Below, piece after piece: positions 3,151 through 38,266 of a stretch of 38,266 bases of DNA. The stretch is from positions 1 to 38,266 of the IMG/VR virus record IMGVR_UViG_3300020477_000066. One strand, given 5' to 3'. The stretch is from a virus. The notes beneath the pieces are model-generated. The model was not told the DNA's origin. It did not search any database and was given only the letters and a program-made list of their open reading frames with translations. The translations under genes were made by a program, and so were the position numbers. Every line of letters starts with the position of its first letter. The first letter of the stretch is position 1.

Positions 3151-3186
3151 GGACCACCCTTTTCCACCCGTAGCGATTTCCGGACA

Positions 3187-3195: not shown

Positions 3196-3203
3196 CACCT
3201 CAA

Positions 3204-3637: not shown

Positions 3638-3777
3638 AATCAGCACTTACGTAACGGGAGCTACGATGCCTCAACTTCGACAAGAGTTCAACGAAAAATG
3701 ATCACCTTCACGATGCGCTATCTGCTAACGTTGCCACGTGACAGCATGGGGTCAAGTCTGCTTGGAAGGGTACCAAA

Positions 3778-4233
3778 ATGACGGTTGAAGCGCGACTGAG
3801 ATGGCTTATTGAGGAACATGAATGCTCTGCGACGGAGCTGAGCGCACAGCTTGGCAAGGCGCGCAACACGCTTAGCCAGCTGATGGTCAAATTGCGGCAG
3901 AACCCGCGCTACGCGAGTCAGACGCTGACAGCCTTCGCCGAGCTAACCGGCGCATCGCTGGACTGGATCATATTCGGCAGGGGCCAACCGTACCCGCCAA
4001 ACGAGGTGTCGCACGTTGACCCGGAGTATCCGAACCGCGCGGTGGCTTGCGCGTTTGCCCAGCGCAGCGGGTTCCTTGAGCGCGCCATACGCGAGGTCGC
4101 AAGCGGGCGGCCCGAACAGGACCTCAATCCGATGGATTGGTACCAGCAAATCGCAAAACGCCACGACGAAATGGTCGCTATTGGCATCATGGGGGAGCAG
4201 CATGAGGGAGAACTCTCAGACGTCGGTCAATAG
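3778..4233 (+). CDS. HTH transcriptional regulator, LDWIIFGRG type
   Basis: A 151-residue regulator starting at ATG 3778 with GGAAGGG a few bases upstream. The N-terminal half is a helix-turn-helix (RLRWLIEEHECSATELSAQL, then GKARNTLSQLMVKLRQ) ending in the motif LDWIIFGRGQP, common in phage repressors. The C-terminal half is a helical domain with YPNRAVACAFAQRSG and a later MDWYQQIAKR. There is no S24 peptidase domain, so it would not self-cleave. It is paralogous to the regulator at 9267, which shares the FGxG segment, a YPxR...AQRS block and a terminal Trp-containing helix. Its stop codon lies in a 15-bp tandem duplication overlapping the next gene. Confidence 0.75.
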   Translation: MTVEARLRWLIEEHECSATELSAQLGKARNTLSQLMVKLRQNPRYASQTLTAFAELTGASLDWIIFGRGQPYPPNEVSHVDPEYPNRAVACAFAQRSGFLERAIREVASGRPEQDLNPMDWYQQIAKRHDEMVAIGIMGEQHEGELSDVGQ

Positions 4234-4957
4234 GACGTCGGTCAATAGAGCACACGGCAAAGCCGAACTGGAGGCCATCGATTTCGCACGGATCTGCGGC
4301 GTCTGCGACGAAGCCATCACGCTCGTGCTCGGACAGCCCACGCCGATTCGTTCGCGCCAGAGCTGGATCGAGGCCTTCACCGCAACCCAGCGCTTCGTCG
4401 AGCAGGACCTCAATCCCGACACGCACAGCTGGACCGCCACCCACGACGGCATCATCACAGCGGGACCCCGCGCCGGCATGTCGGTCCTGCCGCTGCTCGA
4501 GCACCACAACAACGGATTTGCGTGGGGACACGACGCCCAGCGCAATCAATCCATATTCGCATGGACACGAGGCGACCTCATCACCGGCGGATTTGTGGCC
4601 GGAAAACGCATCGTCACCGCAGCCGGATTCGAGCTGGCCGGACGCGCGTGGATTGCACCAGATGGCAGCTTCACCGACCGGTTCATCATGAAACCGCTCG
4701 GCGGAATAGCTCAGCCAATCTTCGACGCCATGCAGAAAATCGCATTGCGCAAATTGCGAGGCAAACACCTGTCAGAAATGACGCCAGCGTGGCCCAAACA
4801 CCACCCCGACCACGTGCCCGAAGAGGACACCACCAAATGCCTCATCCACGAGGTGTTCGGCGGCATGGGCGTCGCATTTCGGCACGACTATCGCCAAACA
4901 GATAGCCGCGGCCACTTCGAAGTCGACCTAACCGGCCGCCACATGTGGATTAGCTGA
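4202..4957 (+). CDS. Protein of unknown function
   Basis: A 251-residue protein that I do not recognise. It starts at ATG 4202, overlapping the 3' end of the HTH gene by 32 bases, so the two are probably expressed together. Near the N terminus it contains TSVNR twice, encoded by a 15-bp tandem duplication. The body is soluble, mixed alpha/beta and rich in His, Trp and Gly, with WTATHDGIITAGPRAGM, GFAWGHDAQRNQSIFAWTRG and GVAFRHDYRQTDSRGHFEVD. No Walker, zinc-finger or nuclease motif is obvious. It converges on the replication ATPase gene with an eight-base overlap. Pairing with a repressor suggests a lysogeny-expressed accessory gene, such as superinfection immunity or defence, but this is inference. 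Confidence 0.6.
   Translation: MRENSQTSVNRTSVNRAHGKAELEAIDFARICGVCDEAITLVLGQPTPIRSRQSWIEAFTATQRFVEQDLNPDTHSWTATHDGIITAGPRAGMSVLPLLEHHNNGFAWGHDAQRNQSIFAWTRGDLITGGFVAGKRIVTAAGFELAGRAWIAPDGSFTDRFIMKPLGGIAQPIFDAMQKIALRKLRGKHLSEMTPAWPKHHPDHVPEEDTTKCLIHEVFGGMGVAFRHDYRQTDSRGHFEVDLTGRHMWIS
4219..4248. repeat. 15-bp tandem duplication across a gene overlap
   Basis: GACGTCGGTCAATAG occurs twice in tandem. The first copy contains the TAG stop of the 3778 gene (4231-4233); both copies lie in frame in the 4202 gene, giving TSVNR-TSVNR. It looks like a recent slippage event that left both reading frames intact. Confidence 0.9.
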
Positions 4958-6017
4958 CAACCCACTGGCTGCGCCCACGTGTCGCCCGATTTGTGATGTG
5001 ACCCTGCCGCTCGAGACGGTCCAGCATCGCACCAATTGCGTTCGTCCTGCCGCTAACCGAACCGCCGACTTCACGCGTGCTGCAACGAGCGTTTTGCCGA
5101 ATATAGCCCAGCACCGCCTCGCGCAACGCGCTGTCTTCTTCTTCACGGCGCTGCAGCTCAGCGTTGTGGGCGTCCGATGCCACAATGCGCAAACCCCAGC
5201 GCTCGTTTACATCCGAAACCTCGAGCACAAAGTCGTCGCACAGGTTGCCGCTTATCCGAGCTTTGTGGTGCTCGACAGTAATCGGCCGCCCCTTCTCGCC
5301 GCCAAACACCAGCACACTCTGACAAGCGTCGAACACCGCAGAACTGCCCCGAATCGCGAATTTGCCGCTCGCTGAATCGCTCGGCTTGCGCGCGTGATGG
5401 ATCATCACAAACGTGCAGCCCGTGCGCTCACTCACCCGCGTGCATTTGTCGAGAACCAGACGCACCGCACCGCTGTCGTTCTCCTCAGCGCTCGGTGCAC
5501 TTGCCCGGAAGCTGTCAACGATGCAGAGCTTGGCGCCTTCGCAGAGCGACGTCAGGCTGTCCTCAGCCGAGGGCGTGTCCAGGTACATCTCCGGCATAAA
5601 AGCCACATCCAAACGCTCGGCAAGGTTGTCCGGGCCGAGTCGCATAGCGCGTGCAAGCCGCTGGTAGCGCTCCGATGTCAGCCGGCTGCCTTGCTCATAG
5701 TCCAAATGAACGACGCGACCCGCCTCGCCCACATCGAACCGCCCCCACACACGCGAGCCGCTCGCCACGCTCAGCGCCAGGCTCTGCATTGCGATCGTTT
5801 TGCCACTAAAGCCGTACCCCGCAACCATGCTGACCGCGCCCGGAGCAAGCTCTAGCTCCTGCACAACCCAAGGCACCGGCGGAAGCTCTGCGAACAGGGC
5901 CTCGGCGCCAACTACCTGGAATCCTTGGCTATTTGTGGCGCGGTCGAGGGACGTTGCATGACGCGCAACTTCGCCCCAGGCCTTCTGGCGAAATGCCTCG
6001 ATGATTTTGGCCTGCAT
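4950..6017 (-). CDS. RepA/AAA_25-type replicative ATPase
   Basis: A 355-residue RecA-fold ATPase of the RepA-like family, probably the phage replicative helicase. Walker A is GYGFSGKT (about residues 67-74), Walker B is LCIVDS (about 164-169), followed by a sensor-like region FVMIHHARKP. The last ~65 residues look like a winged helix (LREAVLGYIRQNARCSTREV ... GAMLDRLERQGHI). I chose ATG 6017, preceded by GGGGAGG at good spacing; a GTG at 6035 with GAGAGG upstream is a credible alternative adding six residues. It lies just after the primase gene, as expected for a primase-helicase pair, and is the last gene of the leftward replication operon. Confidence 0.85.
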   Translation of the reverse strand: MQAKIIEAFRQKAWGEVARHATSLDRATNSQGFQVVGAEALFAELPPVPWVVQELELAPGAVSMVAGYGFSGKTIAMQSLALSVASGSRVWGRFDVGEAGRVVHLDYEQGSRLTSERYQRLARAMRLGPDNLAERLDVAFMPEMYLDTPSAEDSLTSLCEGAKLCIVDSFRASAPSAEENDSGAVRLVLDKCTRVSERTGCTFVMIHHARKPSDSASGKFAIRGSSAVFDACQSVLVFGGEKGRPITVEHHKARISGNLCDDFVLEVSDVNERWGLRIVASDAHNAELQRREEEDSALREAVLGYIRQNARCSTREVGGSVSGRTNAIGAMLDRLERQGHITNRATRGRSQWVVS

Positions 6018-6044
6018 GTCGATGACCTCCCCCACGCGAACCTC

Positions 6045-6887
6045 TCACAGCGCCAACATCCGGCAACTGGCTCGATGCACCGCGTCTGACGGCAACGCCT
6101 GCAGAACCTGGTAGGTCGTGCGGATGCCGCGGCAATGTTCATGGCTGCAATAAAAGCTGCCATGCGGCGCGCCTTTGCGCGGAGCGAATAGCACCGTCGC
6201 GCTGTCTGTTGAGCGCGTCGTGTGTTCGTGCTGCCACGGGCAGTCGACGCACACACGCACATCGTCGATGCGTCTCCCCAGCATGCCGGCCTCGACAAAC
6301 GCCAGCGCCAGCAGGCTGTCACCGACGTCAGCGGTGGGCGCGCCGCGCTCGGTAAGCTGGGCAGCCTTGGCCACCACCCAGCTCGGCAGCTCGGCCAGGT
6401 CAGTGTAGAGCGGATGGCTGCTGTGTTCCCACGCATACACGGCGCCGGATTTGTGCAGGCTGGGCGCGGCGACGATGTAGCCGTCCGCCTTGACATCCAC
6501 GCCCGCAGCAAGCGCCGACGAAAAGCGGATCCCTTCGGGCTGCCTGAACAGGATATGCCTACCGCCGCCGCCGGTGATGGCTTCGACGGTTTCCGGCAGC
6601 TCGCCATGCTCGTGCAGCAGGTCGTCGAGACTCTCCTCGCCGCCGTTGCGCGGGTCGATGTCCAGCGCCATGATGCCGCTGTCAGGCGTGCAGGCGATGC
6701 CGATGTTTGCGGTTGGGCTGCTCCACCACCACCGCGTGATGGTCGCGATGTTCGTGGTGGCGCTGCGATGACCACGGGGCGCCAGTCTGCCGTTGGGCAC
6801 CTTGCCGCCAGGCTTGAGCGGGAACACAGGCCAGCGCAGTCGCTGCGCATACGCCATCGCAGCTCGTGGCAAATCGCTACTGCTCAC
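6045..6887 (-). CDS. Bifunctional primase-polymerase (PrimPol) domain protein
   Basis: A 280-residue primase related to the PrimPol N-terminal domain found in phages and plasmids. It opens with the family signature (AMAYAQRLRWPVFPLKPGGK). The catalytic metal-binding pair is in ALDIDPRNGG (Asp76 and Asp78), followed by GGGGRHILF (about 106-114) and the later histidine in APSLHKSG. A C-terminal Cys/His cluster (CVDCPWQHEH ... FYCSHEHCRG, residues 213-252) looks like a zinc-binding primase module. The helicase is encoded separately, just downstream, rather than fused. The 5' end overlaps the nuclease gene by 11 bases. It likely makes primers for a host polymerase, as no polymerase gene is seen. 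Confidence 0.85.
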   Translation of the reverse strand: MSSSDLPRAAMAYAQRLRWPVFPLKPGGKVPNGRLAPRGHRSATTNIATITRWWWSSPTANIGIACTPDSGIMALDIDPRNGGEESLDDLLHEHGELPETVEAITGGGGRHILFRQPEGIRFSSALAAGVDVKADGYIVAAPSLHKSGAVYAWEHSSHPLYTDLAELPSWVVAKAAQLTERGAPTADVGDSLLALAFVEAGMLGRRIDDVRVCVDCPWQHEHTTRSTDSATVLFAPRKGAPHGSFYCSHEHCRGIRTTYQVLQALPSDAVHRASCRMLAL

Positions 6888-7248
6888 GACGCTCCGCGAC
6901 GGCTTGGTCGATGCTCTGAATCGCCACCAACACGTTCTCTTCAGCGCTCAGCTTTTTGTTGTAGCTACAGAGCACGTAGATGCCGCCGAAGCTCTCGATG
7001 AACTTCTTCCATTTGCGCTGCTGAGGTCGCAGCTTGGTGCCTGTCTTGACCTCGACCTCAAGCCGCCAGCCCTCAGGCCGTACCAGCCCGCTCAGGTCAG
7101 CGGCGCCAATGGGGGCGCCCATGACCCAACGAGCACCGCTGCGGTCAACAACCCGCAAACGTCCAGCGTTCTGGCGCCACGCTCGCGTCGAGCGACCAGG
7201 CCTGTTGAGCGCGACCTCGATTGCGCGCTGAAACTCTGACTCTCGCAT
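6877..7248 (-). CDS. VRR-NUC family nuclease
   Basis: A 123-residue protein with the VRR-NUC (virus-type replication-repair nuclease) layout. It begins MRESEFQRAIEVAL and contains PIGAADLSGLV (Asp51) followed by RLEVEVKTGTKL, the D...ExK active site of the PD-(D/E)XK fold, then QRKWKKFIESFGGIY. Family members act as structure-specific nucleases on branched DNA. The start ATG 7248 lies four bases after the helicase stop, so the genes are coupled; an upstream ATG at 7266 would add six residues overlapping the helicase. Position between helicase and primase indicates replication or replication-linked repair. Confidence 0.85.
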   Translation of the reverse strand: MRESEFQRAIEVALNRPGRSTRAWRQNAGRLRVVDRSGARWVMGAPIGAADLSGLVRPEGWRLEVEVKTGTKLRPQQRKWKKFIESFGGIYVLCSYNKKLSAEENVLVAIQSIDQAVAERREQ

Positions 7249-7252
7249 CTGT

Positions 7253-8857
7253 TCACCACTGACCATGAGCCTGGCGCGCGACCGCACGCCGGTGGTCGTC
7301 GATGGCTCTCGATTGAGATTTCATTTGTGCAAATACCCACGCGCTGCTGCGGCCTCGCTGCTGCGCAATGGCGCGTAGGCGGTCGTAACGGTCGCGCAGA
7401 ATTTGCTGCTCAGCCGTGTAGATTGGCAGCTCGACACCTCGAGGCGCTGGCGAGCGGAACAGCTCTTTGTAGCGCACATAGCACCAGCCGGGTGCCAGCG
7501 GCACAGCGCGGCTGCGGTTCTTGACGTGCCACTGGGCCACGACCACGTCCCACTTGTTGCCTGAGTTGCCCAGCAGCTCCACCAGAACGCCGTCTCGATG
7601 GCGGAGCTCCCGCTCCCTGGGCAACGGGCGAGCTGCGCCGCAGTCCTCGCAGCGCTTGGCGCTGAGCGTGTTGACGCACAGGCACTCGCAGCACTTCCAG
7701 CCCATCAGCTGAGCTGCTGAGCTGCTGCGCTTCTTGGTCTTGCTCAGTGACCAAGTGCGTTCGTCCTGCGGGAGGCCATGCTGCAGCGCGTTGCCTGCGT
7801 GGTCCAGGATGACGAACGGCGTGTCGCCGTGTGGTCGACTGCCGCGCCCAGCCTGCTGCAGGTAGACGCGCAGGCTTTTGGTCGGGCGGCACATGATGAC
7901 CGTTTTGACAGCCGGGATGTCGGTGCCCTCGGTGGCCACATCGCAGTTGGCCACCACCCGCAGCTCACCGCTCGACAGCTTGGCGAAGATGGCATCACGC
8001 TCAGCCGTGGGGGTCGAGCCATCGACGTGGGCCGCTGCGATGCCGGCAGCGTTGAAGACTGCGGCGATGTGTTTGCTGTGCGCGACGTTGACCGCAAACG
8101 CGAGGGCAGGTGCGTCGTTGCCGAGCTTCTCGTAATGCTCGACGAGATTGCCCACGAGTTCAGCCGAGTCGCAGCGCTCGGCCAGATCGGCCAGGTTGTA
8201 GTCGCCAGCTGTTGTTTTGACGCCCTTCAGGTCAGGTGTGCCTGTCGAGTAGACGCGCGGCTCGACGAGATAGCCTCGGCCTGCAAGCTCCTTGTAGGAG
8301 GCGACCGTGACCAGCTCCTCGAATAGCTCACCGAGGCCCTTGCCATCGGCGCGACGCGGGGTGGCAGTCAGGCCGATGACAACCGCATCGGGGTACAGCT
8401 CGAGCAGGTCGCGATAGCTCTTGCTCATCGCGCGGTGCGCCTCGTCGATGATGATCAAATCAGCAGCCGGCTTGGTGCGTCGCCGCAGCGTGGCAATGCT
8501 CGCCACCTGCACCGGCGCTTGGCGCTTGCGCGCGTACGCGTCCCACAGCTGCGCGTCGCTGGCATCGTCGGGGGCCTCGCCCTGCGGCTTGGCGCCAACG
8601 CCAGCTAGGATCACACCCACGTCGCTCGGCGCAACGCCATAGCGCAACAACTTGCAGAACGGCTGGCGGATTAGCTCACGACGGTGCGCCGTCAGCAGGA
8701 CCCGCTTGCCCTTAGCCAGCGCGCGTTTGATCATAGCAACCGCGATGACCGTCTTGCCGCTGCCAGTAGCAGCCTGCAGCACCATCCGCGACCCGCCGTC
8801 GCGCAGCACCTGCCGGCACCGCTCGATGGCGCCGGTTTGATACTCCCGCAACTGCAT
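7253..8857 (-). CDS. SF2 DEAH-type helicase with C-terminal zinc ribbon
   Basis: A 534-residue superfamily 2 helicase starting at ATG 8857 (MQLREYQTGAIERC) in a one-base overlap with the preceding HTH gene. Q-type motif and Walker A ATGSGKT (residues 30-36), motif II DEAH (138-141), motif III TATPRR (164-169) and motif VI QQAGRGSR (334-341) are all present. Beyond the helicase core, CCECLC at about 389-394 and CEDC at 403-406 form a RanBP2- or ribbon-type zinc site, followed by a domain of unknown role. Related phage proteins remodel forks and recombination intermediates. It is the second gene of the leftward replication operon driven from the switch at 9.2 kb. Confidence 0.88.
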   Translation of the reverse strand: MQLREYQTGAIERCRQVLRDGGSRMVLQAATGSGKTVIAVAMIKRALAKGKRVLLTAHRRELIRQPFCKLLRYGVAPSDVGVILAGVGAKPQGEAPDDASDAQLWDAYARKRQAPVQVASIATLRRRTKPAADLIIIDEAHRAMSKSYRDLLELYPDAVVIGLTATPRRADGKGLGELFEELVTVASYKELAGRGYLVEPRVYSTGTPDLKGVKTTAGDYNLADLAERCDSAELVGNLVEHYEKLGNDAPALAFAVNVAHSKHIAAVFNAAGIAAAHVDGSTPTAERDAIFAKLSSGELRVVANCDVATEGTDIPAVKTVIMCRPTKSLRVYLQQAGRGSRPHGDTPFVILDHAGNALQHGLPQDERTWSLSKTKKRSSSAAQLMGWKCCECLCVNTLSAKRCEDCGAARPLPRERELRHRDGVLVELLGNSGNKWDVVVAQWHVKNRSRAVPLAPGWCYVRYKELFRSPAPRGVELPIYTAEQQILRDRYDRLRAIAQQRGRSSAWVFAQMKSQSRAIDDHRRAVARQAHGQW

Positions 8858-9174
8858 CAAGCGACTCGAGGCGGCTGCGACTCGGGAGCGGGGGCCACGG
8901 GAGCCATCTTGGCGGCCGGGGTTACGAACTCTTGCGTCGCGTCGCGCGACCAGTCCACAGGGCGGATCCCAAACGTGTCCTGGATGTCCAGCGCCAAATC
9001 CAGCCCTGGCCTCCGCTCCCCGTACAGCAGCCGGTTGATGACGCCGCGATGGCGACCCAGCGCACGAGCCACACCGCACTGGTTCATCCCCTGGATCCGC
9101 ATCGCGATCCAAAGCAGCCGCGCGCCCTCGCTAAAATTCGGGCCTACCTTCTGCCGTGTGTGTTGCCAACGCAT
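8857..9174 (-). CDS. Cro-like helix-turn-helix regulator
   Basis: A 105-residue protein with an XRE-type HTH (LLWIAMRIQGMNQCGVARAL, then GRHRGVINRLLYGERRPG), a short linker (FGIRPVDWSR) and a proline- and alanine-rich tail. It is divergent from the repressor-type gene at 9267 and first in the leftward replication operon, the position of Cro in lambdoid phages. The ATG at 9174 lies inside a perfect 19-bp palindrome (9172-9190), a good autoregulatory site. No Shine-Dalgarno sequence is seen, and the predicted -10 is only about ten bases upstream, so the leader is very short. Its TGA overlaps the helicase ATG by one base. Confidence 0.75.
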   Translation of the reverse strand: MRWQHTRQKVGPNFSEGARLLWIAMRIQGMNQCGVARALGRHRGVINRLLYGERRPGLDLALDIQDTFGIRPVDWSRDATQEFVTPAAKMAPVAPAPESQPPRVA

Positions 9175-9190
9175 TCTGAGACTCAGAATG
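9172..9190. promoter_or_regulatory. 19-bp palindromic operator candidate
   Basis: CATTCTGAG, one central base, CTCAGAATG: a perfect odd palindrome. It covers the start codon of the Cro-like gene and its predicted -10 (9185-9190). A protein bound here would block leftward transcription and initiation together. Confidence 0.75.
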
Positions 9191-9213
9191 ATGCCCGCGG
9201 CTGTTGTTGTCAA
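9185..9213 (-). promoter_or_regulatory. Leftward promoter for the replication operon
   Basis: On the minus strand TTGACA (plus-strand 9213-9208) is followed after 17 bases by CATTCT (9190-9185). The -35 is a perfect consensus; the -10 is weak. The Cro-like ATG at 9174 would lie a few bases into the transcript. The -35 overlaps a TTGTCA half-site at 9207-9212. Confidence 0.55.
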
Positions 9214-9256
9214 GTGCCAACGGTGAATGTTGCAAACTGACAACCGAGTATATAAC
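9207..9256 (+). promoter_or_regulatory. Rightward repressor promoter with TTGTCA/TGACAA operators
   Basis: TTGCAA (9230-9235) and TATAAC (9251-9256) can serve as -35 and -10 with a short 15-base spacer. TTGTCA (9207-9212) and TGACAA (9238-9243) form a widely spaced inverted pair; the second lies between the -35 and -10. The regulator's ATG at 9267 follows the -10 by ten bases with no ribosome binding site, as for leaderless phage repressor transcripts such as lambda PRM. Confidence 0.5.
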
Positions 9257-9266
9257 CTAGTGCGTG

Positions 9267-9740
9267 ATGGAGACCCTTGCTGCACGACTGCGGAGCGCGA
9301 TGGATGCGGCTGGCGTCCGTCATGCTGACGTCGAGATAGCGATGGACCGCAGCAAGGGCTACATCTCGCGCGTTCTCAAGGGCGCGCTGGCCAGCAAACG
9401 TCCCAAGGTCAGCGACTGGCAGCCGGCTGCTGATTTGCTCAACGTGCCGCTAGACTGGCTTGTTTTCGGCCACGGTGAAACTCCAGAGGGGTTGCAGTAC
9501 CGGGCAGACCCCACCGAAGACGACATACCCATCCAGCCACCTAAGGACGCTTACCCCGGTCGAGACTTTGTTTTGCGCCTTGCTGCACAGCGCAGCGATG
9601 TGCCAGGCCAGGTGCTCGAGGAGCTGCGCCTGCACACGCCCGCCGACGACGCTGAGCTAGGCGTCGAGTACTGGGAAGCGCGGCTGTTCGACGCGTTCAA
9701 GCGCTACAAGCGCTGGTCGAAGCTATTGTCAGACGACTAG
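9267..9740 (+). CDS. CI-like HTH repressor, LDWLVFGHG type
   Basis: A 157-residue regulator starting at ATG 9267 (METLAARLRSAMDAAGVRHA); a GTG directly before it could add one residue. The HTH (DVEIAMDRSKGYISRVLKGA) is followed by LDWLVFGHGETP and a helical C-terminal domain (YPGRDFVLRLAAQRS ... WEARLFDAFKRYKRWSK). There is no S24 peptidase domain, so induction would not proceed by RecA-assisted self-cleavage. It is paralogous to the regulator at 3778. Divergent arrangement with a Cro-like gene over shared operators marks it as the likely lysogeny repressor. No Shine-Dalgarno is present, so the mRNA is probably leaderless. A terminator follows directly. Confidence 0.8.
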   Translation: METLAARLRSAMDAAGVRHADVEIAMDRSKGYISRVLKGALASKRPKVSDWQPAADLLNVPLDWLVFGHGETPEGLQYRADPTEDDIPIQPPKDAYPGRDFVLRLAAQRSDVPGQVLEELRLHTPADDAELGVEYWEARLFDAFKRYKRWSKLLSDD

Positions 9741-9756
9741 CGCTGTCTGATTTTTT
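9729..9756 (+). terminator. Intrinsic terminator after the repressor gene
   Basis: TCAGAC (9729-9734) pairs with GTCTGA (9745-9750) across the repressor stop codon and is followed by six T (9751-9756). The stem is short, so termination may be partial. Confidence 0.55.
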
Positions 9757-9767
9757 CTGTCGTTGTC

Positions 9768-9804
9768 TGTTGACAACAATGGGTGCTGAGCCCATATTGT
9801 CAGC
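9768..9804 (+). promoter_or_regulatory. Consensus promoter with overlapping operator
   Basis: TTGACA at 9770-9775, a 17-base spacer and CATATT at 9793-9798; the next gene's ATG at 9805 follows the -10 by 6 bases, so the transcript is probably leaderless. TGTTGACAACA (9768-9778) is palindromic apart from its centre and covers the -35. It shares the TTGTCA/TGACAA half-site with the switch at 9.2 kb, suggesting repression of the recombination and integrase operon by the same regulator. Confidence 0.7.
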
Positions 9805-9987
9805 ATGCAAGACAACAATGACGCGGTCTGGCTCGACATGCGCTGGCGCTGCCCCCACTGCCACAGCGAGGTTGAGGACGGCATGTGCCACCAGAGCCTG
9901 TGTGGTTGGGAGCCAGGCACGAAGCCCTGCGATCTGTGCGGGCGCTTCAACTGCCGCTTCCGATTTGGCTGTAAGGGCGGGCAGTGA
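9805..9987 (+). CDS. Cysteine-rich zinc-binding protein
   Basis: A 60-residue protein with CPHCHSE, MCHQSLCGW, CDLCGRFNC and a final CK: about eight cysteines in pairs, consistent with two small zinc sites. The ATG 9805 coincides with the expected transcription start of the promoter at 9768-9804, and no ribosome binding site is present. Function is unknown; phage proteins of this kind often bind nucleic acid or host RNA polymerase. Its TGA overlaps the GTG of the next gene (GTGA), linking it to the recombination operon. Confidence 0.7.
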   Translation: MQDNNDAVWLDMRWRCPHCHSEVEDGMCHQSLCGWEPGTKPCDLCGRFNCRFRFGCKGGQ

Positions 9988-10241
9988 GCCCGTATCCGCC
10001 AGGCGTTACCCAGGCTGACGTCGATGACGCCTGGGGCGGTGGGGAAGAGTGCCGCAGCTGCGGCGCTGAAATCGACAGGCACGACAACTGCGAGTGCCTC
10101 GAGGACGACTACGACCGCATGCTGAGAGTGGTGCGCCGCGTGGCCACCGAGGCGCTCGAGGCCGACAACCCAGCTGCGTGGCTGAAGGCCTGCCAGGTCT
10201 TGGCCACCAGCGCAGAGCTTGAGGAGCTGCTCAGTGCGTGA
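9984..10241 (+). CDS. Small Cys-containing helical protein
   Basis: An 85-residue protein starting with GTG 9984 in a GTGA overlap with the preceding gene. After a proline-containing start (MSPYPPGVTQADVDDAWGGG) it carries CRSCGAEIDRHDNCEC, a compact zinc-ribbon-like cluster, then two helices (DYDRMLRVVRRVATEALEA and WLKACQVLATSAELEELL). Function is unknown. Two consecutive Cys-rich proteins at the head of the recombination operon suggest DNA- or host-protein-binding early functions. Confidence 0.65.
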   Translation: MSPYPPGVTQADVDDAWGGGEECRSCGAEIDRHDNCECLEDDYDRMLRVVRRVATEALEADNPAAWLKACQVLATSAELEELLSA

Positions 10242-10449
10242 CGTGTGGGATGAGATTATATCGCCGATGCTGTCGGCGCTGCTGGTGGCGAGCGCTCTGT
10301 TTGTAGCGGCTATGTGGCTGAGCGGATGCGCCCCCAAGGTGAAGTACGTGCTGGTGCCATGCCAGCAGAAGGAAACGAGCGACGAGGAGTGTGCCAAGGC
10401 GCACGGTGGTGAGTGCCCGTTTATACCGGGTAGAAAGGCTGAGTTTTAA
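10234..10449 (+). CDS. Predicted lipoprotein with lipobox
   Basis: A 71-residue protein starting with GTG 10234, overlapping the preceding gene by 8 bases. The N-terminal region has a hydrophobic segment (MLSALLVASALFVAAM) ending in WLSGC, a good signal peptidase II lipobox, and then a short mature part (CAPKVKYVLVPCQQKETSDE). It is predicted to be lipid-anchored to the outside of the inner membrane or to the outer membrane. It lies in the early/recombination operon rather than next to the lysis genes, so it is more likely a host-surface or superinfection-exclusion factor than an outer-membrane spanin. This assignment is inferred from motif and context only. Confidence 0.6.
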   Translation: MRDVWDEIISPMLSALLVASALFVAAMWLSGCAPKVKYVLVPCQQKETSDEECAKAHGGECPFIPGRKAEF

Positions 10450-11111
10450 TGAGCAGTGACAAGATTGATAAGTTGGCAGCAGCCCTGTGTCGGGCCCAGG
10501 CAGAGCTGACCGGGGCGCCGAAGAACAAGCGCAATCCACACTTCCGCAGCGAGTACGCTGACCTGGACAGCGTGTTGCGAGCTGTCCGACCTGTGCTCAA
10601 CAAGCACGGCATCGCGCTCTTGCAGCTGGCGGACGGCGAGGCGCTCGAGACGCGGCTCGTGCACGAGTCGGGACAGTGGATTGCTGCCCGCACCCCCGTG
10701 CCCCCTGGCGGGGGTAAGAACCCGGCGCAGTCTTACGGGGCGTCGCTCTCCTACATCCGCCGCTATGCCGCGGCTGCCATCTGCGGCATCGCACAGAGCG
10801 ACGACGACGCCGAGTCATACGAAGCGCCGGCGCCAAGCAGCGGCAACAGCAACAGCAACGGCAAGGGTGATCTGGCATCGCAGTACATCAAGGCAGTATC
10901 TGAACAGGAGGGCCACGAGTACCGCATGGCGTCGCTCAAGGCGGCCCGCAAAGTGCTGTCGAGCGACGACTTGTTGCCGGTCATCGAAGCGGTGCTCAAG
11001 TCGACCGAGACCGCCGACCTCGGCAACGTGGCCGCGTTCATCTCCGACTGCAACTACCAAGGCGCCAGCCGCCAGCGGCTGATGGCGGCGTACAAGCAGG
11101 TAGCCGCTTGA
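10449..11111 (+). CDS. erf: ERF-family single-strand annealing protein
   Basis: A 220-residue recombinase of the ERF family, which anneals complementary single strands during phage recombination and circularisation. The conserved N-terminal domain is clear: IDKLAAALCRAQAELTGAPK, NPHFRSEYADLDSVLRAVRP, GIALLQLADGE, AQSYGASLSYIRRYAAAAI. A Ser/Asn/Gly linker near residues 125-140 leads to a C-terminal helical domain. The ATG shares one base with the previous TAA. It is followed by a RecB-like nuclease and SSB, a standard nuclease-annealase-SSB recombination set. Confidence 0.9.
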   Translation: MSSDKIDKLAAALCRAQAELTGAPKNKRNPHFRSEYADLDSVLRAVRPVLNKHGIALLQLADGEALETRLVHESGQWIAARTPVPPGGGKNPAQSYGASLSYIRRYAAAAICGIAQSDDDAESYEAPAPSSGNSNSNGKGDLASQYIKAVSEQEGHEYRMASLKAARKVLSSDDLLPVIEAVLKSTETADLGNVAAFISDCNYQGASRQRLMAAYKQVAA

Positions 11112-12277
11112 GGCGCCTGCCCACATTCAGCAAGGCTGCCCTCGCAGCCAAGTGCGCCTTCCCGTGGAACGGCGGCATCGCGTGGCCAGAGCAGATCACG
11201 TCAGATGCCGCCAACTTCGGCATCGCAGTCCACCGCGCCGCCGAGCTGCTGGCACTGTGGGGCACCGCCCCGCTCGACGCCATAGCCGAGCACTACGGCC
11301 TGCACGGCTCGGAGCTGAAGCGCTTCCACCTGACCGTCGGGTGGGTAGCCGACTTCATCCGCGGCGAGCGCGAGCAGTGGTCGTTCGCTGCCGCAGAGGT
11401 GGCGTTCGCGGTCGACCCGTTTGTCGACGAGTCTCGAATCCTCGAGCAGGACGGACCACGCGACTACAGCCGCGCGCGCCCCGCCGAGCTGTGCGGCACC
11501 GCTGACCTGGTGACCGTGGTGGGCGAACAGCTCATCGTCAGCGACTACAAAACGGGACGCTACAAGATGGGCGCCGACCCATCGGCGGACGCCCAGATGC
11601 GTGCGCTTGGCTATGCAGCAGCGCGCGCCTACGGATACGACAGCGTGGAGGTGCGCCTGCTCAACGTCGATGAGGGCGGCGTGCGCATGACCCGTCGCCT
11701 GCTCGACGTCATCGACCTGGCCACCATCCGGCTCGAGCTACTGGGCGTGGTGCGCGATACCGGCGAGGTCCACAACCCCACACCCAAACCCGGCAGCCAC
11801 TGCGCGCAGCAGTGGTGCCCCATCGCGTCGGTGTGCCCAGCGACGCAAAAGACCATCGCGCAGATAAACCCAGAGCTGCAGCTGACCGCCGACATACGCA
11901 GCCCCGAACACGCGGCGCGGCTGCGCGAGCAGGTTGCAGTGGCCAAGAAGGCGCTGGCCGCTCTGGATACGGCCATCAAGGAATACGCCAAGCGGCACCC
12001 CATACCGCTAGGCAACGGCAAGGTGCTCGGCCAGCAGGAGCGCACGCGGCGCACAATCGAGTGCACCCCCGAAGCGGTGGCCGCCCTCGGCCGCTACGGC
12101 GTGAGCGGGGCAGTCGAATCCAGCGTCAACATGGCCGGCATCAAGCGGGCCGTCAAAGGCGTCTGCGCCAACGGCCAGGCCGCCGGTACCATGCGCGCCA
12201 TCATGGCCGAACTCGAAAAGCTCGGCGTCGTCAAGACGCGAACATACACAACAATAGCGGAGATAAAGAGACAATGA
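11108..12277 (+). CDS. RecB/Cas4-like PD-(D/E)XK exonuclease with Fe-S cysteines
   Basis: A 389-residue nuclease starting at TTG 11108, overlapping the ERF stop by four bases. The PD-(D/E)XK core is visible: the GIAVHRAAE histidine (about 42), AAAEVAF (Glu97), GTADLV (Asp132) and SDYKTG (Asp146, Lys148). A lone Cys16 near the N terminus plus HCAQQWCPIASVC (Cys232, 237, 243) matches the four-cysteine iron-sulfur clasp of AddB and Cas4-type nucleases. The last ~140 residues form a helical region ending at the SSB gene. It probably resects DNA ends to make single strands for the ERF protein. No Cas1 or CRISPR array is present, so a Cas4 role in adaptation is not implied. Confidence 0.85.
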   Translation: MRRLPTFSKAALAAKCAFPWNGGIAWPEQITSDAANFGIAVHRAAELLALWGTAPLDAIAEHYGLHGSELKRFHLTVGWVADFIRGEREQWSFAAAEVAFAVDPFVDESRILEQDGPRDYSRARPAELCGTADLVTVVGEQLIVSDYKTGRYKMGADPSADAQMRALGYAAARAYGYDSVEVRLLNVDEGGVRMTRRLLDVIDLATIRLELLGVVRDTGEVHNPTPKPGSHCAQQWCPIASVCPATQKTIAQINPELQLTADIRSPEHAARLREQVAVAKKALAALDTAIKEYAKRHPIPLGNGKVLGQQERTRRTIECTPEAVAALGRYGVSGAVESSVNMAGIKRAVKGVCANGQAAGTMRAIMAELEKLGVVKTRTYTTIAEIKRQ

Positions 12278-12627
12278 ATCTGCACGTAGTCATGGGTCAC
12301 GTCGGTGCTGACCCGGAAGTTCGAACCACCACCAGCGGCAAGGAGGTCATGAATTTCCGCGTCGCCACCAACCGCCGCCGGAAAGAAGGCGACCGGTGGG
12401 TGGATGAAACCGATTGGCACTCCGTGGTATATTGGGAACCAAAAGGTTTGGTCGACGTATTGCGAAAGGGGTCGCAGGTGCTGGTGCGTGGTGAGTCGCG
12501 CGAGCGTGAGTGGACACACGACGACGGGACGCGCAAATGGAAAACAGAGCTGCACGCGTTCAAGATTGAGCTGTGCGGCGGTCGGCCGCAGTCGCAGGAC
12601 AGCCGCAGCCCTCGGGAGCCCTTCTAG
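12274..12627 (+). CDS. ssb: Single-stranded DNA-binding protein
   Basis: A 117-residue SSB with the OB-fold pattern: MNLHVVMGHVGADPEVR, KEVMNFRVATNRR, DRWVDETDWHSVVYW, KGSQVLVRGESREREW. The typical long acidic-tipped tail is missing; the protein ends SRSPREPF, a proline followed by a terminal phenylalanine, which resembles the DDxPF host-interaction tip only in the last two residues. ATG 12274 overlaps the nuclease stop (ATGA). It protects single strands during replication and annealing. Confidence 0.93.
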   Translation: MNLHVVMGHVGADPEVRTTTSGKEVMNFRVATNRRRKEGDRWVDETDWHSVVYWEPKGLVDVLRKGSQVLVRGESREREWTHDDGTRKWKTELHAFKIELCGGRPQSQDSRSPREPF

Positions 12628-12629
12628 CC

Positions 12630-12830
12630 ATGCTGCTGTCGTGCGGGAGCTATCCGGGGCCGACGTACATCGAGGGCTCCATTGACGAGATTGCCAGGCT
12701 GGCAAAGCAGGCTGGCAAGGTGGTGCTGTTCGTGCCGGCCTCGGACCCGGACGGCAGCGCGTGCGTACTGATCAAAAAGCCTGCCGTTGGGCAGGGCATC
12801 AAGGCACTCATCAGGCGGGGGATTTTCTAG
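12630..12830 (+). CDS. Hypothetical small protein
   Basis: A 66-residue protein starting at ATG 12630, two bases after the SSB stop. It reads MLLSCGSYPGPTYIEGSIDE, then a helix (IARLAKQAGKVVLFVPAS) and a lysine-rich end (LIKKPAVGQGIKALIRRGIF). It looks like a small alpha/beta protein. No family is recognised. Its TAG overlaps the GTG of the next gene by one base. Confidence 0.6.
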   Translation: MLLSCGSYPGPTYIEGSIDEIARLAKQAGKVVLFVPASDPDGSACVLIKKPAVGQGIKALIRRGIF

Positions 12831-13009
12831 TGCGCCTCAAGATGTTCACCGAGCTTTGTAGGGAGCTTGGGCTGACTCCGGCCCAGCTGCGGCGTGTCGC
12901 CGACGACATCGACGGCAAGCTCGTCGAGCCTGAGCCGGCGCGCGTCACAGAGGAGCACCGGCGCATAGCGCGGGCCGCGTTGCTCAGAGCAGGCATCGAG
13001 CTGATATGA
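12830..13009 (+). CDS. Small helical protein upstream of integrase
   Basis: A 59-residue protein starting with GTG 12830. It reads MRLKMFTELCRELGLTPAQL followed by RRVADDIDGKL and a helical end (EEHRRIARAALLRAGIEL). The first half could be a small helix-turn-helix. Its position just before the integrase, with the stop overlapping the integrase ATG, is where excisionases are often found, but no excisionase signature is certain. Confidence 0.55.
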   Translation: MRLKMFTELCRELGLTPAQLRRVADDIDGKLVEPEPARVTEEHRRIARAALLRAGIELI

Positions 13010-14151
13010 GCGTCAGCGCGGTTAAGACCAAGGGCGGCGTGCGCTTTCGCGCCCGGCTGCGCATCGGCGGCAAGGTTGTTTCGCTCGGACAGTACGCGAC
13101 ACGCGCCGAGGCCGAGAGTGTCGTCAAGGCTGCACGTGCCGCGGCAAGGGAGACAACCAGGCGCACCCTGCGGTGGTGGGGCGAGATATGGCTCGACGAG
13201 CGCGACAGCGACCCCCACTACCGCGGCGTCGATGAGGAGCGCTACAGGTGGAACCGCCACGTCGTCGGCTTCGCCCACTTCGCCGACTGGCCGCTCAAGA
13301 AGATCAAACGACGCGACGTGGTTGCCTGGGTCAAGCGGTTGCAAAAGCGCGAGGTCATGCACGTCAGCCAGGTCGCTGGCGAAACCGTGCTCAAACCAGC
13401 CGGGCGCTCGCTGTCGAGGCAGACAGTCAAGCACTGCTTAAAACTGCTGCGGCGCGCGCTGAACGAGGCGGCCGACATGGGCTACGTAGATCAGTGCGTC
13501 GCGCTCGGCGTGCGCGTGCCCAAGGTCGCCAGCTCGCAAGAGACCTGGACGTTTTTGTCGACGATTGAGATAAGCCGGCTCTTCGGCCTGAACCTGCGCG
13601 ATGACCAGCGCGCCATCCTGAGCGTCGCAATCTACGCCGGGCTGAGGGCAGGGGAGCTGTGGGGACTGAGGTGGGGCGACGTTCGCCTCGGAGCGCAGCC
13701 ACAACTCACCGTGCGCCACAGCTACCGCGGCCCAACCAAGACCGGCCGCATCCGCCATGTCCCGCTGCTCGAGCCAGCCCTCGAAGGGCTGCGACGCTGG
13801 CAACACCTGCGACCCGGCGTCGCTCATGCGCTGGTTTTCCCCGCCCACGGCGGCGGCTGCCACGCGCGCGGCTTCGATGCAGGCTGGCCCCGCCTGGTGC
13901 GCCTCGCGGAATTTGGCAGGCGCGTAAGGTTCCATGATCTGCGCCACACGTTCGCGTCGCACCTCGTCATGGGCTCCTGGGGACACCCCTGGAGACTCGA
14001 AGAAGTACGCCAGATGCTGGGGCATTCCACCATCCAGCTCACCGAGCGATATGCCCACCTAGCCCCCGATTCACTGCACAAATTGGCAGCTAAGACCAAC
14101 CAGCGGCGTGACGCTGGTGTGACGTTGGACATTTTTAAGGTGGACACGTGA
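13006..14151 (+). CDS. int: Tyrosine recombinase integrase
   Basis: A 381-residue phage integrase starting at ATG 13006 in an ATGA overlap. An N-terminal arm-binding segment (GGVRFRARLRIGGKVVSLGQ) precedes a SAM-like core-binding domain (about 55-165) and the catalytic domain. Active-site residues are present: Arg214 in AGLRAGELWGLRW, Lys245 in PTKTGR, His310 and Arg313 in FHDLRHTFASH, His340 in MLGHST and the nucleophile Tyr349 in ERYAHL. It should join attP to a bacterial tRNA-Arg gene, as a tRNA fragment lies 30 bases downstream. It ends the rightward operon, so it is probably co-expressed with recombination genes unless it has its own promoter. Confidence 0.96.
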   Translation: MSVSAVKTKGGVRFRARLRIGGKVVSLGQYATRAEAESVVKAARAAARETTRRTLRWWGEIWLDERDSDPHYRGVDEERYRWNRHVVGFAHFADWPLKKIKRRDVVAWVKRLQKREVMHVSQVAGETVLKPAGRSLSRQTVKHCLKLLRRALNEAADMGYVDQCVALGVRVPKVASSQETWTFLSTIEISRLFGLNLRDDQRAILSVAIYAGLRAGELWGLRWGDVRLGAQPQLTVRHSYRGPTKTGRIRHVPLLEPALEGLRRWQHLRPGVAHALVFPAHGGGCHARGFDAGWPRLVRLAEFGRRVRFHDLRHTFASHLVMGSWGHPWRLEEVRQMLGHSTIQLTERYAHLAPDSLHKLAAKTNQRRDAGVTLDIFKVDT

Positions 14152-14414
14152 GCGGGAAAAGCGTAGTCATTCCGCCGGTTGCGCCCATAGCTCAGCTGGA
14201 TAGAGCACCGGCCTACGAAGCCGGAAGATCTGCTAACGAGTTCGGCGACTTACGGGCGAAACGTCACCCCGCGGTCCTACAGAAGTTCTGGGCTGACCTC
14301 GAGCAAGAGCAGCGACGGCATGAGCAGGCGGTCGCTGCGCTGTTTGATGATCTACTCAACGCTACTCGCACAGCGGCAAAACCTTCGCGATGTTCAGATC
14401 AAGAAGATCCGTAG
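14148..14414 (+). CDS. Questionable small ORF containing attP
   Basis: An 88-codon frame starting with GTG 14148, overlapping the integrase stop by four bases and running 53 bases antisense into the lysin gene. The first third is simply translation of the tRNA fragment. The rest (KRHPAVLQKFWADLEQEQRR and HEQAVAALFDDLLNAT) looks like a genuine amphipathic helical protein. If real, integration would cut the gene and change its N terminus between phage and prophage. Probability of being a real gene is modest. Confidence 0.3.
   Translation: MSGKSVVIPPVAPIAQLDRAPAYEAGRSANEFGDLRAKRHPAVLQKFWADLEQEQRRHEQAVAALFDDLLNATRTAAKPSRCSDQEDP
14181..14225 (+). other. attP: attP core: 5' half of tRNA-Arg(ACG)
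   Basis: The sequence reproduces the first ~45 bases of a tRNA-Arg gene: acceptor strand GCGCCCA, D-arm TAGCTCAGCTGGATAGAG, and anticodon arm CCGGC-CTACGAA-GCCGG with anticodon ACG. The match then stops; no T-arm or matching acceptor 3' strand follows. It lies 30 bases after the integrase stop. A tRNA fragment beside an integrase gene is the usual form of attP, so the host site is predicted to be in tRNA-Arg(ACG), with crossover in the anticodon arm region. Because the 5' half is carried, integration would need the phage sequence to restore that half of the gene. Confidence 0.85.
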
Positions 14415-23548: not shown

Positions 23549-24702
23549 TTCCGCCTTTCCAGCTCATCGACACGCTGGCCGAGTCGGCCAATCATCCCAA
23601 GCGTTGCGCCGGTAGCCGCACGCTGGTCAATCATCAGGTCACCACCAGGCGAGTTGGTCAGCATCATGCGCCCTAGCGGCGTGCGCTCTAGTTGCTGCGC
23701 CATGACGCCGTACTGTCGGCCGGGGGCCGCGCCGATAGAGTTTGGATCTTTGTAGTCGTAGGTGTAGCCCCGCAGATTGCGAATCGTCTGGTCGTTCTGA
23801 TCTGGAACAAGAGGCACACCAGGCCTCGGCGCCGGAGCGTCGACCCAGGCAGGAGTGCGACCAGCCGCACGCGCACGCGAGGCGCCCATGCTCGTGGGGA
23901 CCATAGCTGCTGTATTGGGCGCCGCCCCCATGGCAATGCTGCCATCTCCCAGCTGACCAACAAGCGCATCAACCGACCGCTGGCCTGCCCTAAAGGCGCG
24001 CTTCTTGGCGCGCTCATCGGACTTCGGGTCGGTGTCCCCACCCATTTGAGCCGCACCGGAGAACACAGCGCCGCCGACCTGCGCAGCGGTCGCCGTGGCC
24101 TGCTGCGCATCCCTTGTCGCGCCCCTTGCCTCGGCATCATCTAGATCTTGCTTGCGCCCGCGAGCCGCCGCGAGGTCCGACAGGTGCTGCGTTTCGCCGC
24201 GCTGTTGCTCCATCTCAGCAGCAGAGCGACGAGCCATCGCTTCGTACATCAAACGGTCGCGCTGCTGGTCCTCTACCGCCTGCAACTGCTTGGCCATGCC
24301 CCAGCCCCGGCTCTCGAGTTCACCACCCGCATACTGCGCAGCGCGCGCTGCTCCTGGCGCCATCCCACGCCGCGCAGCCAAGGCGCCCATCTGCGCCTGC
24401 TGCTGACGGACGCCGCCCCACATCTGACCCTGCGAGCCGTCGTACCGCTTCTGAAACCGTGGGTCGCCAATCTTGCCATAGCCCATGTATGGGTCTTGAC
24501 CCTGCAGAAACGCCATCTGCTGGGCATAGGTCTCGTTGATAGGCGCGCGCTGGTAATAGCCCAGGCCATCGGGGCGCAAACCTGTCGCTCCGCCAGTAGG
24601 CGAAAAGCTCTCGCCCCACCCCCGGCGCCCCCACATCTCGAGTGGATCATTGTAGCCACTGGCTTGGCCCGGCGGCTTGCTGGGGTCGTAGTCGTTAGGC
24701 AT
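23545..24702 (-). CDS. Virion protein with C-terminal S74-like chaperone domain
   Basis: A 385-residue protein starting at ATG 24702 (MPNDYDPSKPPGQASGYNDP). The first ~215 residues are Gln/Arg/Ala-rich and helical, like internal virion proteins. From about residue 228 it resembles the intramolecular chaperone (peptidase S74) domain of endosialidases and tail spikes: SDERAKK, YTYDYKDPNSIGAAPGRQYG, VMAQQLERTPLGR, GGDLMIDQRAATGATLGMIG, with a final coiled coil (RLGQRVDELERR). In that family the protein is cut at a Ser within SDxR. Here the domain would leave a helical rather than beta-helical partner, which is unusual. The ATG overlaps the previous stop by one base. Confidence 0.65.
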   Translation of the reverse strand: MPNDYDPSKPPGQASGYNDPLEMWGRRGWGESFSPTGGATGLRPDGLGYYQRAPINETYAQQMAFLQGQDPYMGYGKIGDPRFQKRYDGSQGQMWGGVRQQQAQMGALAARRGMAPGAARAAQYAGGELESRGWGMAKQLQAVEDQQRDRLMYEAMARRSAAEMEQQRGETQHLSDLAAARGRKQDLDDAEARGATRDAQQATATAAQVGGAVFSGAAQMGGDTDPKSDERAKKRAFRAGQRSVDALVGQLGDGSIAMGAAPNTAAMVPTSMGASRARAAGRTPAWVDAPAPRPGVPLVPDQNDQTIRNLRGYTYDYKDPNSIGAAPGRQYGVMAQQLERTPLGRMMLTNSPGGDLMIDQRAATGATLGMIGRLGQRVDELERRK

Positions 24703-35667: not shown

Positions 35668-35984
35668 TCGCCGACTCCGACGCCGCGCTTCTTGGCGGCA
35701 ATGTTGACAGGTTTGATGCGGCTATGGCGGAAGCGGACGTCATCATCCTTGCTGCGCCAGTGTTTGTCTGCGGTGGTGTTTTCTGCGGAGGCAAACTCCA
35801 TGAGACCGCGTTCGAGCGCGGTGACGCTCTGGTGCTGTCGCGGAGCAGCTGGCTCATAGCGTGACAATTCGATGCTGAGCCCTGCCCATGTCAGCCGCGT
35901 TACTCCTTTGGCGCGGCAGAGGTCAATCACTGAAGCGAGACTTTCTAACTCGCCCCACGGTACGCCATTTTCGTTTTTTGCCAT
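35664..35984 (-). CDS. Small protein overlapping the end of terL
   Basis: A 106-residue protein starting at ATG 35984 (MAKNENGVPWGELESLASVI), with AAGGGAG at good spacing; the start lies 62 bases inside the large terminase gene in another frame. The first part is a helix plus beta hairpin (DLCRAKGVTRLTWAGLSIEL), a pattern seen in small proteins between terminase and portal genes. The rest is charged. Function unknown. Confidence 0.6.
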   Translation of the reverse strand: MAKNENGVPWGELESLASVIDLCRAKGVTRLTWAGLSIELSRYEPAAPRQHQSVTALERGLMEFASAENTTADKHWRSKDDDVRFRHSRIKPVNIAAKKRGVGVGE

Positions 35985-37575
35985 TGTCGTTCTCCCTTTC
36001 AAACTGCCGTTTGCTGTCAGCTAGCTCGCGCATATCGCGGGCGGTCCATCCATCTGGCAGCCCTTCGGCTTCTGGCGCGATGGCGCGCAGTGGCTGCACA
36101 GCCAGCATCGCCAAGCTTGCCGCGTAGTCGCAGTGTCTTCCATCTGCGGTCTGCGGCAGGTCGACTCGAATCCCGACCTGCGTGACCACCCTGCGCACCC
36201 GTTTCAAATCACCCATCACATGGCGGTCGTCGGGCAGCTCAATCTGCCCCGTATCCACGAGCGTCGCCAAGCTCGAGAAGTTCTCCACCTTGCTGCGGCT
36301 GGTGACCGTCTGCTCATCGATGGCAAGACCATGCCGCCGCCCCAGTGCCTTGAGCGCATCGGCGGCATACTGATCACTAATGACGCGTTTGACCCGGTAG
36401 GGGCGCAGCACCTTGCCAATCTGGATCAAGACATCTTCAGGATCCAACGGGTGCGCCACCGAGCCCTGCCACTGGCGCGCCATGACAACCTGCAGAAATT
36501 TCTCCACGCTGCCGTCTTCGTTCTGGCGCTCTGCCTGCGTACCCACCACCAGCGTCCACGCGTTGGCTCGCGTAGCAGGATCCATAACAGCCACGTAATG
36601 GTGCCGGTCCTTGGCCCCAATCGTCAGCGGCTCCTTGCGCGCAATCTTCTCGAGCGTCGCCGTCGTAAACAAGCTCGACTCGACATCCGCAAACTCGCCC
36701 AGCACATCTGTGCGGTACACCTTCTCATTGCGCTTCTTGATGTCCGCAACGCGCTCCTGGGTCCAAAAATATGGATTGAGGTGGTCCGCCCGCGAACGTA
36801 TGACCACCAGCGCCCTCGTGGGTTTGCCCCAGTGCTCCTTCTGCGTTTCGTAGGCCGGGCCAAACGGCGCCCACGGGGAACCAATATCCACCAGCTGCGC
36901 GCCCGGCAGCAGACGCCCCATCACCGCGTCAATCATGTCATCCAGGTTCACGACCGCGCCCGCATCCGCGCCCACCATGCGAGGGGACTCGTCGAAAATA
37001 CACCCCGCACTCCAACGCGCTACCAGCGTCGCGCCCGCTCGAGACCCCGCCACCACCTTCACCTCCACAGCCTTGCCGCTAGGGTGCTGGATCAAAACAC
37101 TGTCAGACGTAGGCTCGCCCAACAACAACGGCGCCATCGCCTCCGTCGCACGAATGTTGCCCACCAAATGCTGGTAAATCACCTTTGCAAGGTCCACCTG
37201 CAAGCTCACCACGCTCACACGCGGCACCTCGCCAGGACCCAACTTCGCCATGTCAACACGCTGCGTGCAGCACCACGCAATCGCCGCAGCAAGCAAACTC
37301 TTGCCCGTACGAATCCCCGCCAACAACTGAACACGCGCGGGCATACCCTTAGGCGGCTTGCCACCACCTAGCGCCAACGTCACATGTGGATGGTCCGCCA
37401 ACTCGCCCAGCGGCTCCCCATCAAAAATACGACAAATCGCCGTCTGCAGCGGCGACATCTGAGCACCCACGTGCCCCAACCACGATCCAAAGACGCTCTC
37501 CAGCGACGTCAGGTTCTGACGCGCGGCCAATTGCAGAGCGTATTGCTCTATGGCTTCAAGCTCTTCGGGGGTCAT
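35923..37575 (-). CDS. terL: Terminase large subunit
   Basis: A 550-residue packaging motor starting at ATG 37575 (MTPEELEAIEQYALQLAARQ). The ATPase half has Walker A GIRTGKS (residues 87-93), with an arginine inside the P-loop, and Walker B GCIFDE (Asp195, Glu196). The RNase H-like nuclease half shows Asp332 in AVMDPATRA, Asp401 in ISDQYAADAL and Asp483 in HCDYAASLAM, the expected metal-binding triad. It cuts and pumps concatemeric DNA through the portal. No ribosome binding site is obvious at the ATG, and 333 noncoding bases with strong secondary structure separate it from terS. Confidence 0.93.
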   Translation of the reverse strand: MTPEELEAIEQYALQLAARQNLTSLESVFGSWLGHVGAQMSPLQTAICRIFDGEPLGELADHPHVTLALGGGKPPKGMPARVQLLAGIRTGKSLLAAAIAWCCTQRVDMAKLGPGEVPRVSVVSLQVDLAKVIYQHLVGNIRATEAMAPLLLGEPTSDSVLIQHPSGKAVEVKVVAGSRAGATLVARWSAGCIFDESPRMVGADAGAVVNLDDMIDAVMGRLLPGAQLVDIGSPWAPFGPAYETQKEHWGKPTRALVVIRSRADHLNPYFWTQERVADIKKRNEKVYRTDVLGEFADVESSLFTTATLEKIARKEPLTIGAKDRHHYVAVMDPATRANAWTLVVGTQAERQNEDGSVEKFLQVVMARQWQGSVAHPLDPEDVLIQIGKVLRPYRVKRVISDQYAADALKALGRRHGLAIDEQTVTSRSKVENFSSLATLVDTGQIELPDDRHVMGDLKRVRRVVTQVGIRVDLPQTADGRHCDYAASLAMLAVQPLRAIAPEAEGLPDGWTARDMRELADSKRQFERENDNGKKRKWRTVGRVRKSRFSD

Positions 37576-37908
37576 TTATATCTGCTATGGTCTCGGTTTT
37601 TGTTTGTGAAAATATATCTTCCCGGCTTGCCGCCGGAGGGCACGGGGTGCCATCCGGAGGGGGGTGTACACCCCCTAGCCAACCACGGTCCGCAGCCGGT
37701 CGCTTGCCCATGGCAAGCTGGTCCTGTTGCAACGCCTGGAGCCTGTCGCGTCGTTTCGCTCCGCCACAAGCCAGCGCACAGTGTGGTGCCACTGGCTGTG
37801 ACAGACAGCCAAGCCAGCAGTTGCTAGCGTGCGATTGGCCATGATATTGCGGATTGCGTCTTGCGGTGTCGTCCTCATACGAATAACATAAGTCGCGACT
37901 TGCACCGG
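37576..37908. other. Noncoding, highly structured terS-terL gap
   Basis: No gene is convincingly supported in this 333-base gap. Open frames here lack start signals and look like low-complexity Arg/Pro/Cys translations. In the late region almost all other genes overlap, so the gap stands out. It contains at least four inverted repeats: 37622-37636 (CCGGC/GCCGG), 37633-37657, 37660-37675 and 37702-37718 (GCTTGCC, CAT, GGCAAGC), plus a GCCAG/CTGGC pair near 37770-37800 and an AT-rich stretch at 37575-37620. Candidate roles are the packaging-initiation site, a late regulatory element, or a degraded inserted element. Confidence 0.5.
37633..37675. other. Adjacent hairpin and perfect palindrome
   Basis: CCGGAGGGCAC (37633-37643) pairs with GTGCCATCCGG (37647-37657) with one mismatch around a three-base loop, and is followed two bases later by the perfect 16-bp palindrome GGGGGTGTACACCCCC (37660-37675). 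These are stable as DNA or RNA structures and lie about 60-100 bases upstream of the terL start. Confidence 0.75.
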
Positions 37909-38266
37909 TCAACCCTTGTCGGCGCTTTTCTTTTCAATAGCCGGCACAGTGTTTGCATCGACTACGACTTTGCGCTCGCTACGTACAGCACGCAGCGCGG
38001 CTAGCAGCGCGGCTTCCCTGTCTTCCGCACTGCGCGTAGCAAGCTCGGGTGCGCTGCTGTCGACCAGCACGGCTTGCACGGGTTTGCCCAGCGAGCGGTC
38101 AAGGATGGCCTTGGCAGCTTTCAGCTTGATTGAGTCATCGTCCGATTCGAGCAACATGCGCAAGGTTCGCATTGCGTGCACAGTCATCTCGCCACGCACT
38201 TCAGACAGCGCCAGACGCTGCGATTGTGTGTTCGTTTGGCGAGCTGCGGCGATGGCTTTCCTGCTG
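37909..38266 (-). CDS. terS: Small terminase subunit (runs off the window)
   Basis: The C-terminal 118 residues of the small terminase subunit; the true start is at GTG 108 after circular joining. In frame it reads SRKAIAAARQTNTQSQRLAL, then SEVRGEMTVHAMRTLRMLLE, LKAAKAILDRSLGKPVQAVL and a charged end. The helical TLR..L....D...KL.AA..ILDR..GKP pattern is widespread in small terminase subunits and related phage DNA-binding proteins. A GTG at 38199 is an internal codon, not the start. It should recognise the packaging site, possibly in the structured gap that follows. Confidence reflects the pattern plus its place before terL. Confidence 0.75.
   Translation of the reverse strand, partial: SRKAIAAARQTNTQSQRLALSEVRGEMTVHAMRTLRMLLESDDDSIKLKAAKAILDRSLGKPVQAVLVDSSAPELATRSAEDREAALLAALRAVRSERKVVVDANTVPAIEKKSADKG
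38167..38266. repeat. Terminal direct repeat, right copy
   Basis: Same sequence as bases 1-100 with three differences, all synonymous in the terS frame. Joining the two ends here restores one continuous terS gene and a circular map. Confidence 0.95.

Follow-up and report, generated by a model that had tools for sequence, protein, structure and literature searches.

In this study, the two ends of a 38,266-nucleotide stretch of viral DNA (IMG/VR record IMGVR_UViG_3300020477_000066, positions 1 to 38,266, hereafter the window) were compared, and they almost certainly represent one stretch of a circularly closing phage genome recovered from two strains, that is, a trace of assembly and not a special genome end. 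As a metagenomic contig, the window would derive from a single population of temperate tailed phages, whose genome closes circularly at about 38,166 bp. This population would comprise at least two strains, near-identical over most of the genome and about 11% apart over approximately 610 bases that take in terS and the adjacent gene. Assembly traces of this kind are ordinary and already known; here the independent confirmation is unusually good.

In an ungapped alignment, bases 1-100 differ from 38167-38266 at just three sites, positions 61, 67 and 100 of the left copy, so that the end overlap described in a sequence-only reading of this DNA was borne out by direct comparison. Among all overlap lengths scanned from 20 to 600, none besides 100 reached an identity of 80% or more, and a simple calculation puts the chance of three or fewer mismatches in 100 bases, with the offset fixed, at about 1e-54. 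In the joined terS frame, the differences at 61 (ACT/ACA) and 67 (ACT/ACG) are silent threonine changes, and the mismatch at 100 would be ACA/ACC, again a threonine third position, the right copy stopping within that codon. The same reading had taken all three differences as silent threonine third positions, and this stands, with the third probable from a codon that is incomplete in the right copy. Silent changes make up 26% of all single substitutions in the overlap stretch, which gives three out of three a probability of about 0.018; taken alone, the three silent mismatches are suggestive, and not decisive, against error.

Closing the contig was observed to restore a whole gene across the overlapping ends (Table 1). 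When 38166 is joined to base 1, an intact minus-strand open reading frame (ORF) of 121 aa is obtained, running from a GTG at 108 to 1 and then from 38166 to 37909, with a stop codon immediately upstream of the GTG start. The joined protein weakly matched phrog_2538 (terminase small subunit, E 5e-4), a match that appears only once the ends are joined, as the profile search with the cut gene returned no terminase small subunit. The terS label of this ORF is based on that weak match and on its position beside terL, which is itself recognised weakly (22.5% identity to the S-CBS4 terL, E 1e-5; terminase large subunit structures, E 0.03).

Table 1. Features at the ends of the window and around the closed junction.
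Feature	Position	Strand	Remarks
Left copy of the end overlap	1-100	-	Haplotype A, 5' part of terS; lies within the 1,977-base run identical to PBMF01000024.1
Right copy of the end overlap	38167-38266	-	Haplotype B; the terS codons of the left copy, with three silent changes (the third probably silent)
terS start and first 36 codons, haplotype A	1-108	-	GTG at 108; continues at 38166
terS remainder, haplotype B	37909-38265	-	118 codons, running off the contig end; compared with A, 28 codons differ silently and 2 by replacement
93-base block, same in both haplotypes	38134-38226		Holds the contig start (base 1 = 38167)
Divergent haplotype B tract	37653-38266		65 substitutions in 613 bases compared with PBMF01000024.1
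76-aa conserved gene between terS and terL, haplotype B	37675-37905	-	Differences from A mostly in third positions; one 3-base indel
terL, terminase large subunit (weak sequence evidence)	35923-37575	-	Protein identical in PBMF01000024.1

Independent evidence was provided by a second contig. A TerL scan of 84,980 prokaryote genomes disclosed one relative, 100% identical, on PBMF01000024.1, a contig of 37,250 bp in 'MAG: Chloroflexi bacterium isolate SP22'. Lying in reverse orientation, this contig is circularly permuted relative to the window: its bases 1-13354 correspond to window 13354-1 and the rest to window 38265-14274, and it thereby covers 1-13354 and 14274-38265 of the window. It has no physical end at the overlap, and crosses the window junction unbroken at about 13300 of 37250, with the 100 bases present once, inside an intact terS. 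It follows that the sequence closes circularly and that no single molecule carries the overlap as a repeat. The accession falls into the series submitted by the Tara Oceans MAG project, whose assembly used MEGAHIT and then Minimus2 (PMC5769542), and whose samples were assembled singly, limiting the unresolvable branches that arise from strain heterogeneity (PMC5769542). We take the isolate name SP22 to stand for South Pacific. If PBMF01000024.1 comes from that project, it has passed a merging assembler and could itself be mosaic. The presence of the phage in a Chloroflexi MAG hints at an uncultured Chloroflexota host, though binning alone is no proof.

With reference to this contig, the two ends of the window behave differently. 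The left end is 100% identical to PBMF01000024.1 over 1,977 bases, and this version was named haplotype A; at 61, 67 and 100, PBMF01000024.1 carries the bases of the left end (100 by way of the identical run). Comparatively, 37653-38265 at the right end, named haplotype B, displays 65 substitutions in 613 bases and a 3-base indel, against 49 substitutions in 36,733 comparable bases elsewhere; in length, this tract exceeds the 100-base overlap about sixfold. Between the A and B versions of terS, 28 changed codons are silent and two alter the residue (A81E and N96S, numbered as in the cut gene), with an NG86 dN of 0.021 and dS of 0.39, and the 3-base indel in the 76-aa gene preserves the reading frame. 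The differences look evolved, being silent, clustered and extended past the overlap, and judged from these sequences A and B are evolved variants under purifying selection, which probably co-existed in one sample. Exact searches of IMG/VR, in a set from which near records may be missing, gave no second copy of a haplotype B 37-mer and no match to a shared 43-mer.

It could be argued that the mismatches are sequencing or assembly errors at the low-coverage ends of a single-haplotype circular genome, as contig ends are error-prone and the overlap itself holds just three mismatches. However, the divergence density of the whole 613-base tract, the 28 silent codons among the 30 changed in terS, the frame kept in the 76-aa gene despite its indel, and even the low probability that the three overlap mismatches alone are all silent speak against errors, and the third-position pattern refutes them; this explanation can practically be dismissed. 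Both the earlier claim that the mismatches are not random errors and the earlier claim of two phage variants under purifying selection have thus held, the left end being that of PBMF01000024.1 and the right end not.

The same data bear on a true packaged direct terminal repeat, in which the 100 bases would belong to a linear T7-like virion genome and the mismatches to error or mutation. As in T7-like genomes, a direct repeat is present at each end, and the contig is near a plausible genome length. T7-like packaged repeats are renewed in every packaging round, and identical copies are expected, but the copies in the window differ at three sites. Unlike T7-like repeats, they also lie inside terS, a gene that the repeat would cut, and the sister genome harbors the stretch singly, in mid-contig and in an intact terS; moreover, the 613-base tract into which the right copy runs differs by 11% from haplotype A, to which the left copy belongs. 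A packaged repeat is hence very improbable, and the single mid-contig copy sustains the sequence-only reading, which had argued against one.

The preferred explanation, two strains joined on one contig, can be followed through the position of the contig start. The first base equals 38167 and falls in the 93-base block, 60 bases before the first mismatch, and the right end lies 40 bases past the block. The assembler would have begun on haplotype A within this block common to both strains, circled the genome once, switched to haplotype B near the start of terL, passed the shared block again and halted 40 bases beyond it, on haplotype B. As the contig starts on A and ends on B, the same 100 bases occur at its two ends in the versions of the two strains. 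An unresolved node common to two strains would probably leave such ends, exit A opening the contig and exit B closing it; the graph steps of the assembler are our inference. The central proposal of the earlier reading, that variants were joined at the overlap, is supported by the recovery of both haplotypes and by the single-copy junction in PBMF01000024.1.

A sub-version of this explanation, compatible with it, differs only in the origin of the A-to-B switch. Here the phage would have acquired its terS tract from a diverged strain by natural recombination, the left end would come from a co-occurring non-recombinant, and the change near 37653 would be biological. The 1.3 kb at 36329-37652, directly before the divergent tract, differs nowhere from PBMF01000024.1, and this zero-difference run, together with the near-identity elsewhere, resembles a recent short-tract exchange. 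Nevertheless, an assembler crossing between strains in the same identical stretch would yield the same contig, making the two origins indistinguishable here, and two haplotypes at the join are still required. We give this sub-version a little less than an even chance. Again, the differences between the two contigs occur in tight clusters kilobases apart, such as 36301-36328 and 23795-24070, with terL carrying five silent changes within the 28 bases of the former; this clustering suggests short-tract exchange between strains.

The 93-base block is unusual amid about 11% divergence, as it harbors 31 unchanged codons (shuffle p 0.0007, for a block chosen post hoc). Its identity would be explicable by recombination or by a shared graph node, and its lack of silent change could be due to recombination, chance or a constraint at the DNA level such as a packaging (pac) site. 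It seems unlikely that selection acts on the block as DNA, as it might on a pac site lying within terS, and that the block also marks a point of recombination between strains. The RNA fold of the conserved terS block was not stable above shuffles (z 0.28).

Relatives of the phage were scarce. Among GenBank phages (50,697 records), no close relative was found, with no DNA match to 8.3 kb, TerS unmatched and TerL giving weak matches only. In IMG/VR, one relative was detected by TerL, one by TerS (47% over 34 aa) and none by portal, and none of the TerL and TerS relatives was near enough to supply a third haplotype. When 294 genomes of the same class were searched with TerL, only PBMF01000024.1 and two distant partial matches were returned. 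Relatives by the major capsid protein, 24-50% identical, were used for synteny and for a survey of contig ends only.

This survey covered 20 related IMG/VR contigs, 19 found by major capsid protein and one by TerS, of which eight have exact end overlaps, three inexact overlaps, two repetitive ends and seven none. The overlaps of the two contigs with repetitive ends (G016 and G017) were set aside, since they display many staggered lengths at 80-92% identity. The exact overlaps measure 127 bases in six relatives and 123 bases in two, lengths typical of assembler k-mers and not of biological terminal repeats. It has been reported with CheckV that the repeats at contig ends are often as long as the k-mer of the assembler (PMC8116208). 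Such repeats resemble the window in that the assembler cuts a circle and the repeat does not mark where the genome physically ends, but they are exact and one k-mer long, whereas the overlap of the window carries three strain differences.

The inexact overlaps span 450 bases with 13 mismatches (G008), 148 bases with five (G009) and 143 bases with two (G014). In G008, 121 identical bases are followed by the 13 mismatches between 122 and 323 and then by exactly 127 identical bases, the length of the six exact end overlaps, and all 13 mismatches are silent in an ORF spanning the closed junction. In G009, silent differences do not predominate in the most probable frames, and the overlap of G014 contains no long ORF; the silent pattern recurs in one of the three. 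The window is also similar to the breaks and unresolved bubbles caused by strain heterogeneity (PMC5769542, PMC11443906), as its contig ends where the haplotypes diverge, and likewise PBMF01000024.1 ends near a cluster of differences at 13128-13252. Unlike the usual breaks of this kind, both sides of the break are found on one contig, because the genome closes on itself.

PBMF01000024.1 breaks at an integrase and tRNA-like region and is without window 13355-14273 (919 bases). The window encodes a tyrosine integrase at 13006-14151, which differs from that of PBMF01000024.1 by 15 substitutions, with nine replacement codons against three silent ones, unlike the silent pattern of terS; from the sequence comparison, this region is read as a second strain-variable spot. 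Downstream, about 45 bases (14180-14227) resemble the 5' half of tRNA-Arg genes, the likeness reaching 91% in genomes from the class to which the Chloroflexi MAG belongs, and ARAGORN placed a tRNA-Arg(acg) at 14180-14262. It is possible that 14180-14227 serves as an attP core, for which the 5' half of a tRNA gene would be used; an exact host copy of the tRNA-like stretch was sought in the Chloroflexi MAG and was not found. Additionally, a 49-base direct repeat, 94% identical, was observed at 2663-2711 and 2828-2876, 165 bases apart and containing the inverted motif CCGTTTCCCACCGGCGGGAAACG, which is possibly an operator or iteron.

Our data provide a clean and independently confirmed case in which strain variation leads to an inexact end overlap on a complete phage contig, and serve as a warning that one contig can start on one strain and end on another. 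Inexact end overlaps also yield free haplotype data. Since three of the 20 related IMG/VR contigs likewise have inexact end overlaps, completeness tests may overlook a noticeable fraction of complete genomes if they demand that end repeats be exact.
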